This document shows positions 1,437-50,002 of a DNA stretch of 64,000 bases, piece after piece. Position numbers and translations under genes: made by a program. Location: NCBI GenBank assembly GCA_009663005.1, contig CM018913.1:59935-123934 (forward strand). Direction: 5' to 3'. How positions within the stretch are numbered: the stretch's first letter is position 1; every line of letters starts with the position of its first letter. The stretch comes from Actinidia chinensis (lineage: Eukaryota > Streptophyta > Magnoliopsida > Ericales > Actinidiaceae). The notes under the pieces are model-generated. The model ran no database searches. It was not told the DNA's origin and saw only the letters and a list, made by a program, of their open reading frames with translations.

Positions 1437-4400
1437 GTTAGGGTGTTATGTGAGAAGGCAAGGGAGCTTCTAATGGAAGAAAAGCAATGTTCAGGTATGA
1501 TTTTGTCCATCATTTTGTGCTATATGAACTCATTGTTACTTAAAAAAAAAAAAAGGGGGTGCAGGATCTTGAGATTCTGCCACATCCTGGTGAGGGGTAT
1601 TTAATGATGTGGCACTTTGTTTAATGGAATGGGAAAATAGGTAAGGATGTGGGGCCATAGTATGTCTAGTCTTCTGTTAGGAATAAACTATGAATACGTC
1701 ATTATGAGGAAGCACTACCAGTTAATATTCAATGTGCTGTTCCTTTTCATGGTACAACCTGTTGTGCTCAAGCTCTTACATGAGGAACTGTAAACACCAT
1801 TTTGATAAATAGTATTGGATTGTTTGGCTAATTTTTATTGTATTCCAGGCTGAGCTTTTAATCGATTCACAATGACTAGAGTCGTCTCCTATTTGGAATT
1901 CTAACCATTGATACAATAGAATGATTGTGTAGCAAGGGCCCATTGATAATGAATTGAAGAATGATTTTTTAGTTGCAAGGGATTATTCTAAGTTTGGTTC
2001 TCTAGCCTTGCCAGCAGGGAAGCAGGGTTTGATTCTATGTTCTTTAATACTGTTGTTGGAATAATTCCTGACAATCCTTCCTTCTCCAACTCCATCAGAA
2101 AAAAAGGACCAATAAAAAGGACACAAAATTACTTTGAAATGTGAAGCACTACTGATATATTTGAACTCTATCCTAAAAAAGTGCAACTTTAAATTTATTA
2201 GCTTTATGGCCTAGATTTGGAGTTCAAATCTTTACTGATTGAAGAAGATATCAGTGAATTTAGCGACTTACTTCAGTACTGAACTTTGAAGGAGCTTTTT
2301 GCTAAAAGGGAAAAGTAGTTTGCAAATTTGAAATTTAGCATGAAATTTAGTAACACTGAATCTTCAAGTTGGTAGACATTTGCGTGTTAAAATTTTAATT
2401 TAAAACCTATTGTTCATTTCTGTTGAATGATGATGTGAAAGTCTAATGATTGATTACATATACATCACAAGTGACTAAATACGCTTGCTAAAGAAACCGG
2501 TGAAGCTTTCAATTTTCATCACTCAGATTTGTCAAAAGCCCATAAATTTACAGTTGAAACCATTATTAAGGTTTCGAGTTGTCCTAACTTGTGTGAGTGA
2601 AGGTGCCTTTTACCTCTTGCACTCAGTGTTGCTTCCTCCCTTTTTAATATTTTTTTCATTTTATGTCTTTTTTCGGGAGTGGGGTAGGGAGCAGGTCAAG
2701 CGGGGCTGGTTCGTTGTTTTCTGTTTTTTCATTTATTTTGTATAACTTTGAGTTTCTATAGGTCTCACTGCGGGTACAACCTAATTAGTTTCCCCTTTTT
2801 CTATCTTTTGTTTGCCTATGTCAGCCTGTGAACCGCCTGTACAATATGTGGTGATATTCATGGGCAATTCCACGATCTTGCTGAGCTTTTTCGAATTGGA
2901 GGGAAGGTATGAACCTTATTTGAGGACCTTGTTGCATTACATGTTGGGCAACTATATAGGCAATTCATTTCCATTGCTAATAGGATGCTAACTTTGAAGA
3001 TTGAAATGGGTGGACTCTTTCAGATGCTCTTTCACATCAAGATCTATGATTTTGTGATGTGATTGTGCTATACGTCAGCATGTTGTTGGGATTTTTGCTG
3101 GAGTCATCCTATTTTTTGTTTATGCGGTATTTCAGAAATGATTAAAAAGAATAATACATTACAATTCATTCACTCAAAGTTGTATGTTTGTATGCGTATA
3201 TGTCTCCTTATGGATCCATACGTGCATCTTACTATGCCGTGTCTTGACTTTTTGGAGTTGCCATCTTGCATGCTCTATGCCTGTTGCCAACTGTCAACAC
3301 TTGTCCATGCTCTACCCGTCCTACCGATTGTAGTCATGAATATTCCCCCTTTTCAAGTTCCTAATTTGCGACTTTGTTACTTTAACGTTTCATACTCCTA
3401 ATACACCTAATTCACTCATCAAATTGTTATTTTGTTAATTTATGTTTTTTGCTTCTTTTTGTAGAAATTTCGTTAATTGATTTTTGCTTACCTATCTTTT
3501 TTCTGATTCATAGTGTCAGATACAAGTATTTGTTCAATGGGAGATTGGTCGATCGTGGTTATTATTCAGTTGAACCTGGTACATAAGTGCATATATTATT
3601 TCTTATACTAAAGTTTTGAGAATAGTCAATTATGAAAGTAAGGCTGGCTGAATTGTAAAATAGTCCTTCCGTCCCTATTTGTTTCTCCGCTTGATGATCA
3701 AAATGTTTTCTACTTTGAAAAGTCAATTAGCAAAAATTTTGTAGACTTCCCCTTTTGCACCTTCACTTTTGAATTGATGTGATACTCCACTTCTTCACTT
3801 TTAAGGAAATTTCCAAGTTGATGAAGGATGATTTTGGTAAGTAACTTTAAAGGGTACCATCTTTGACTCCTTAAAATGTTGGATTCTCCAAATTGGCAAA
3901 CAAATTGGGAAGGAGGGAGTAATAGTCTACCTTACTCTTCATGACTTCTCTGGTTTTCAGATTTAGTTACCCAGGGAAAGGATTTACCTGAATTGCCTTA
4001 TTTGGTTTTGCAACCTGTTGTCTGCTACATCCGTACTCAATTTATGTGTGTTAGCTTTTGGTGGCTTTGAAAGTGCGCTATCATCAACGAATTACTATTT
4101 TAAGAGGAATCATGAGAGTCGACAGGTATTCTTTGGTGCTGCATTCTGATTTTTGTGGTTTTTTTGTTCTTGTTCTTCCAAATTTCGGTAGTCTTTTTAA
4201 TTGAATTTTGCCCAACATTTCATGGTTTATGAATTCCCCGGTAATCACTGTATGATTTGTGCTGAGTGTTTCTGTTTTGGGTTGCAGATCACTCAAGTTT
4301 ATGGGTTTTATGACGAATGCCTACGAAAGTGAGTTTCTCACACCCTTTGCTGTAAGAGGTCAAGTCATTTGGAGTGATGATATCCTCTTAAGACACAACC

Positions 4401-49600: not shown

Positions 49601-50002
49601 TTTTGATTACAAATTTTAATTGACGAAAAAACTCCAAATATAATTTAAAAAAAAAAACACTAAGCGAACAGGGGTACTTTTCTGTTGGAAAGAATAATTC
49701 ACGAGTCTTACAGAGACACAGGAATCCAATAGAGAGTGAGGGCCATTGGAGGACGCATCGTAGTTCTGCGTGATCTGCATAGTATACGAGCTGGTGCACG
49801 GCGTGTGGGTGCGACGGTTCGCATCAAAAAACCCGCAACCGCCGAGCCGTGAGCTCGCGCCATAGTCCCTGGGGTTGGACCCACCACCTGATTCGATCAA
49901 TTGTCCACTTTGAGGCCTCTCTCGATCACCTTGGCCTCTTCGCACCCAAGCCCAGCCTCACCAATTCTTTTTTCCACTCCCACTTACTATTCTTATCCCC
50001 AT
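37620..50002 (-). CDS. AAE18: Acyl-activating enzyme 18-like (AMP-forming acyl-CoA synthetase family)
   Basis: ANL-superfamily ligase activating a carboxylate as acyl-AMP; plant AAE17/18 are predicted peroxisomal. Exons, 5' to 3' on the minus strand: 50002-49712, 48778-48651, 48576-48329, 47732-47526, 44909-44781, 42067-41995, about 41895-41675, 41382-41290, 41210-40995, 40626-40501, 38981-38887, 38633-38435, 37744 to about 37620. Motifs in order: [80 protein letters not shown], split SSGTTG (P-loop), [135 protein letters not shown]. Indels occur in most exons. A short segment after exon 4 was not found, and the terminal peroxisomal tripeptide cannot be read. Confidence 0.92.
37995..38019. 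repeat. (GA)n microsatellite in the last AAE18 intron
   Basis: About 12 GA units between the final two coding exons. Confidence 0.92.
39390..40200. mobile_element. GC-rich LTR-like insertion in an AAE18 intron
   Basis: From about 39420 to 40090 the sequence is clearly richer in G and C than the AT-rich intron around it. It contains CTATATAAG at 39853-39861 as a core promoter, followed by a CT-rich leader and a GC-rich stretch, as in the U3-R-U5 layout of a plant LTR. The left boundary may be TGTAAGGACACGCAAC at about 39423. The right end and a 5-bp duplication were not found. No gag or pol. Probably a solo LTR or LTR fragment. Confidence 0.5.
42290..44500 (+). pseudogene. Degenerate L1-type LINE reverse transcriptase, antisense in an AAE18 intron
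   Basis: Plus-strand fragments: [24 protein letters not shown] (catalytic-region motif), FDIVINGNL, then after the nested TRIM the ADDLFI motif at about 43027 (the family FADD/YADD box). Next come [33 protein letters not shown], and near 44010-44190 a zf-RVT-like region with a frame containing [13 protein letters not shown]. This is the order of plant L1 ORF2. Multiple stops and shifts make it inactive. The 5' end and endonuclease were not found; the poly(A) end is unclear. Confidence 0.82.
42655..42960 (-). mobile_element. TRIM (terminal-repeat retrotransposon in miniature) nested in the LINE
   Basis: Two direct repeats of about 85 bp, 42655-42738 and 42876-42960, share AACCACCAACTCAT-like, GAGGGGC and TTATTATTT words. 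Directly inside the right copy, the minus strand reads TGGTATCAGAG (complement at 42865-42875), the primer-binding site complementary to initiator methionine tRNA. The 5' terminal repeat is therefore the right one. The element is about 306 bp with no coding sequence. Flanks GTTAA and GTAAC may be a damaged 5-bp duplication. Confidence 0.8.

Follow-up and report, generated by a model that had tools for sequence, protein, structure and literature searches.

A 64-kb stretch of Actinidia chinensis sequence with broken genes is very probably a duplicated, uncorrected assembly of a region that lies inverted elsewhere on the same contig

We examined a 64,000-nucleotide stretch of the Actinidia chinensis genome (C26:59935-123934, the forward strand of the 20.3-Mb contig CM018913.1; hereafter the window), and conclude that it is very probably a duplicated, uncorrected second assembly of a region whose correct version lies inverted at about C26:530-602 kb. 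The duplicate layout is probably a false haplotypic duplication. The original prediction held that the broken genes of the window reflect assembly error and not four pseudogenes. Its case for error stands, with indels exceeding substitutions and splice sites mostly kept, but it missed the duplication: because intact inverted copies of AAE18 and of the PP2A 3' half sit on C26, the window is a duplicated as well as an uncorrected layout. At least two of its genes also occur in intact form about 0.5 Mb away on the same contig, and on this ground we read the genes of the window as an unpolished duplicate.

Four genes are recognizable in the window.

1437-10615, plus strand: PP2A catalytic subunit, an error-ridden copy with exons 2-11 (the placement of exon 1 is unreliable), from protein alignment; we take the subtype to be PP2A-3/4.
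21514-30495 (limits approximate), plus strand: eIF2B gamma, an error-ridden copy with 13 exons, from protein alignment.
34950-36200 (limits approximate), plus strand: 2-oxoglutarate dioxygenase, two exons with broken-looking frames, from matches to DIOX_N and 4xae_A.
37634-50000, minus strand: AAE18 (CoA ligase CCL12), an error-ridden copy with 14 exons, from protein alignment.

Frame events were counted with a custom protein-to-DNA aligner that allows introns, substitutions, insertions and deletions. The references were P0006 for PP2A (best of 18 tried), Rhododendron P0122 for eIF2B gamma (best of 29 tried) and A. chinensis P0241 for AAE18. When the joined AAE18 pieces were used as a query, A. 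chinensis was the best of the matches listed (568 bits), followed by A. rufa (518) and Camellia (487). PP2A required 21 frame events over 282 codons, with 20 substituted codons, in a count that leaves out the unreliable exon-1 alignment (31 codons, 9 of them clean). For eIF2B gamma there were 68 frame events and 57 substituted codons over 461 codons, and for AAE18 84 frame events and 43 substitution-only codons over 728. As a control, 17 intact plant homologues were back-translated and run through the aligner against these references, giving 0-19 frame events, with 10 or fewer in 16 of the 17; the maximum of 19 came from Camellia AAE18 (P0243). Simulated clean orthologues gave no frame events in four runs. 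The originally proposed need for frequent frame changes is thus confirmed for PP2A, eIF2B gamma and AAE18. Pfam scans of the raw frames found no match over AAE18 and one sub-threshold match over eIF2B gamma.

The same proposal had included the dioxygenase, for which the frame count does not set it apart. DIOX_N is seen in one frame only. Joined together, the pieces resemble feruloyl-CoA 6'-hydroxylase (PDB 4xae_A, E 2.8e-33). The 26 frame events over 207 codons, obtained against this distant reference, overlap the range of intact controls, which gave 4-11 events at 30% divergence, 5-26 at 40% and 15-34 at 50%.

Indels were found in all 14 exons of AAE18, all 13 of eIF2B gamma and 8 of the 10 PP2A exons, in agreement with the expectation that nearly every coding exon would carry one. 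The three indels that had been singled out, two in PP2A and one in eIF2B gamma, coincide with frame events placed by the aligner (at 4109, in the exon at 9516-9705, and at 27405).

Splice sites are mostly kept, as had been predicted. With the aligner favoring GT-AG, introns with these ends numbered 10/10 in PP2A (including the first PP2A intron, which borders the dropped, unreliable exon 1), 11/12 in eIF2B gamma and 10/13 in AAE18, or 31 of 35 overall. Removing this preference left GT-AG in only 3/10, 1/13 and 3/13, respectively, a count that is uninformative because intron ends slide; decoy dinucleotides were used instead. Demanding GT-AG cost 15 bits in PP2A, 42 in eIF2B gamma and 40.5 in AAE18, far less than any of 12 decoy dinucleotide pairs, which cost at least 62, 79.5 and 112 bits. 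One odd AAE18 intron (window 41211-41289) is a true GC-AG intron, with the same ends in the intact copy (C26:560262-560339).

That intact copy was found by searching the plant's own genome (638,422,350 bases in 1,499 contigs) with P0241. All 20 exon matches fall on C26. Seven are broken and lie in the window; the remaining 13 lie at C26:551125-563271 on the plus strand, opposite to the strand of AAE18 in the window. Aligned to this second locus, 726 of 728 residues equal P0241, with no frame events. Three of the 13 matches had been flagged for an internal stop in an intron-blind six-frame search, whereas the intron-aware alignment contains no stop. Aligned in this manner, P0242 of A. rufa is identical to intact AAE18 at 710 of 720 aligned residues, which places the source at A. 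chinensis or very near it. An intact 3' half of PP2A lies on the minus strand at C26 ~590.7-593.2 kb, with 171 of 174 codons encoding the residue of P0006 and no frame events, compared to 13 frame events over the same 174 codons in the window.

The counterpart of the window as a whole is C26 ~530-602 kb, inverted and 0.45-0.5 Mb away, and the mirrored coordinates sum to ~661 kb throughout. Taking the assembly as haploid from its size, it thus contains a second near-identical copy of one locus, as a false duplication does. The eIF2B gamma protein gave five matches in the own-genome search, all in the window, and the region in which its counterpart is expected reads N. Judging from the position of the block, an intact eIF2B gamma would lie in the N region, as would most of the dioxygenase. 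An array of TTTAGGG telomere-type repeats, among them many variant units, adjoins the intact block (C26:526010-527310); it is possibly a misjoin or an interstitial telomere.

Read-type errors and a few differences in structure are all that separates the window from its counterpart where both copies are readable. Three features were identified by this alignment.

1-95: a poly-G/poly-A tract within a ~200-bp piece that is missing from the counterpart; it looks like low-quality sequence.
23438-25919: a low-error patch in an eIF2B gamma intron, with 2 mismatches and 20 indels relative to the inverted counterpart.
39422-40115: ~690 bp within an AAE18 intron that the counterpart lacks, LTR-like by eye.

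The ~690-bp segment begins with TG, has a GC content of 53% and has a short direct repeat at its flanks. Two open frames that overlap, one of 111 and one of 137 aa, span most of its first part. Conversely, ~386 bp are present in the counterpart only. Because read error does not make differences of ~690 or ~386 bp, the two copies must be more than two readings of one molecule. Such structural differences favor an origin from the other haplotype over a single molecule, and the LTR-like insertion may mark a second haplotype. Yet alongside these possibly haplotype-specific differences there are almost no substitutions in the low-error patch, where the only two mismatches in 2.5 kb are 3 bases apart, and therefore the underlying sequences are nearly identical there.

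The same differences bear on a reading in which the duplication is real: a very recent inverted segmental duplication near the chromosome end, with a second copy that was left unpolished and whose damage is artefactual. We consider this unlikely. In its favor are the ways in which the two copies differ structurally, among them the LTR-like insertion, and the unusual position of the counterpart beside the TTTAGGG array. The contig start, ~55 kb from the matched block, also has an undamaged frame (a 146-aa open frame in C26:1-6000, kinase-like by eye), indicating a better-quality context. However, a real duplication sits poorly with the low-error patch, from which true substitutions are nearly absent. 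Protein cluster P0241 of A. chinensis has one member sequence on one contig, which weakly favors a single locus. In addition, same-scaffold false duplications are common, making up 61-92% of the false duplications in newer assemblies, according to the available part of one survey (PMC9516828). A fuller version, in which a young inverted duplication of ~70 kb next to an interstitial telomeric array acquired its own retroelement insertion and only the base damage is artefactual, is a shade less probable still.

A fold-back origin was also considered. A sum of ~661 kb would place the center of a giant fold-back read or palindrome at ~C26:330 kb. C26:326-335 kb contains no inverted repeat or center of symmetry, and the outer mirrored stretches, where readable, gave no match (C26:1-6000 against 655-662 kb, and 35-40 kb against 619-627 kb). 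The fold-back was therefore rejected.

The differences between window and counterpart were counted over 35,656 aligned bases. There were 853 mismatches (2.39%), 678 insertions (1.90%) and 916 deletions (2.57%), and most events were of a single base (832 of the deletions, 91%, and 518 of the insertions, 76%). This count takes in flanking pieces on either side of the window, at about -1432 to -105 and 69001 to 71144. It leaves out window 51280-56048 (4,930 columns with 155 mismatches and 198 gap openings, overlapping its neighbor by 22-23 bases), as well as pieces of 300 columns or fewer, on the other strand or off the ~661-kb diagonal. Mismatches are frequent, at 2.4% of aligned bases, and the scarcity of substitutions that the original prediction implied was not borne out. 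Transitions numbered 202 and transversions 651, a Ts/Tv of 0.31 (0.33 or 0.35 with other gap costs), and the indel/mismatch ratio was 1.38-1.90 over three gap settings. Exons (2,638 bases) had 2.58% mismatch and 4.09% indel, and non-exons (33,018 bases) 2.38% and 4.50%. Indels that are mostly of a single base and similarly frequent in coding and non-coding DNA are as expected of an uncorrected long-read consensus, and the presence of such apparent sequencing-error differences in one copy is as expected of a homotype false duplication. Error density along the window is patchy.

The protein alignments gave a similar result. With the closest references, the window had 1.04-1.79 frame events per substitution, compared to 0.84-0.99 for simulated read noise and 0.18-0.37 for simulated pseudogenes. 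With more distant references, where real divergence contributes further substitutions, the ratio was lower, at 0.64 and 0.81; we nevertheless counted these values against our explanation.

These spectra weigh on the possibility that a duplicated block has decayed into four neighboring pseudogenes. A non-processed pseudogene block from a segmental duplication has introns, broken frames and an intact parent. The intact parent that such a reading needs is present for AAE18 (whole) and for PP2A (3' half), and since an intact parent block exists, four neighbors dying together is no longer unlikely in itself. Neutral decay, however, leaves more substitutions than indels and more transitions than transversions, and the window shows neither. 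Unlike a block of this kind, it has a Ts/Tv of 0.31, an indel/mismatch ratio of 1.4-1.9, exon rates close to non-exon rates and near-zero divergence in one patch, and its event/substitution ratio lies above those of simulated pseudogenes. Natural plant mutation is of opposite character to the differences seen here: in the accessible part of a report on Arabidopsis, control lines had 31 and 60 SNVs against 8 and 10 indels, respectively, and one control had a Ts/Tv of 2.53 (PMC8145854). Decay is thus highly improbable.

It had also been suggested that the indels fall often at homopolymers. Overall, there is no such enrichment. Runs of at least 4 make up 12.2% of bases and 10.8% of single-nucleotide deletions, and in coding DNA they touch 18 of 153 one-base events versus 139 of 1,182 clean codons. 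Both the deletions and the coding events are near-random with respect to runs, and a homopolymer explanation was rejected on this basis. Only the cleaner bins lean toward homopolymers (26 of 113 indels in runs of at least 4, versus 201 of 1,481 elsewhere), as if the residual errors in low-error bins were of another kind.

With regard to a sequencing platform, inserted bases copy their neighbor at a frequency of 0.745, compared to 0.45-0.53 at larger distances, and A/C or G/T exchanges account for 504 of the 853 mismatches. Copying of the neighbor is described for PacBio subreads, and A-to-G type mismatches for ONT reads, in the available text of PMC5553090. On that description, the insertions fit the PacBio pattern, and the mismatches, which are weakly patterned and not dominated by A-to-G errors, fit neither PacBio nor ONT well. 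A search for SMRTbell and ONT adapter remnants found none, the best score for each falling inside the spread of 10 shuffled controls.

Finally, the whole assembly could be noisy, with every gene broken; in its favor, a search of all 638 Mb for Metallophos (PF00149) gave a single match, far below the plant expectation, but this may stem from only two candidates having been scored, and the intact AAE18, the intact PP2A 3' half and the undamaged frame at C26:1-6000 make this reading extremely unlikely, the first two ruling it out for C26. Base damage is not spread over all of C26, because intact AAE18 and the PP2A 3' half are present on it, inverted.

Under our preferred explanation, a duplicated and uncorrected second assembly, about 7% of positions in the window would carry near-random long-read errors (single-nucleotide deletions, insertions and transversion-type mismatches). 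The second layout may have been built from reads belonging to the other haplotype, or from noisy reads that failed to collapse with the first, and would then have been placed into the same chromosome sequence the other way round. Polishing would have failed in the window since accurate reads map to the cleaner copy. By the same reasoning, mapping of accurate reads could mislead as a check on the window, as such reads would tend toward the intact copy.

The survey of false duplications cited above is reportedly the work of Ko et al. (2022). Its available part distinguishes heterotype duplications, which arise from two haplotypes, from homotype duplications, which arise from read errors, and associates false duplication with false gene gains (PMC9516828). 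The window shares with these cases a second copy of a locus on the same scaffold and the presence of sequencing errors. It differs, as far as that part of the survey describes them, in that its two copies lie 0.45-0.5 Mb apart in inverted orientation, and its error load together with its structural differences straddles both types. An uncorrected long-read consensus (Kastor, in the accessible portion of PMC12007338) is similar in that single-base indels break the frames and residues remain recognizable. Compared to that case as described there, the window has no overall homopolymer enrichment, has mismatches about as numerous as either class of indel, and belongs to a duplicated block with an intact counterpart. 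Of the papers listed in our literature search for Actinidia assemblies with indel errors, none concerns a kiwifruit assembly.

Annotated as it is, the window would present four neighbors resembling a dying duplicate, with the broken PP2A, eIF2B gamma, dioxygenase and AAE18 appearing as spurious fragments or false pseudogenes. As to the original concern that annotation would fragment real genes, at least AAE18 and PP2A would not be lost, since intact sequence for both exists elsewhere on C26. The window shows how unpolished sequence can accompany a likely false duplication inside a 20-Mb contig. Even without reads, an error copy can be told from a pseudogene block by the ratio of indels to substitutions, the Ts/Tv and the equal rates in exons and introns.

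Some further observations concern the locus and its surroundings. Among the matches listed, the Citrus sinensis PP2A, eIF2B gamma and AAE18 proteins (P0047, P0156 and P0326) apparently share a contig, judging by its length, and the Paulownia PP2A and AAE18 have gene numbers 018542 and 018546. The grouping of PP2A, eIF2B gamma and AAE18 may be old, as for an ordinary locus, judging by these few entries among the matches listed rather than by mapped positions. Beyond the window, C26:133901-134463 looks coding and, by eye, also seems to change frame, and the noisy block may extend past the matched part. Within the window, AT-rich repeats of similar sequence are present at 32531-33884 and 57231-58410. 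The first of these intervals contains inverted arms (32685-32764 and 33665-33744) that are 91% complementary, and a repeat pair (33093-33435 and 33524-33868) with 37 mismatches and 27 gap openings.
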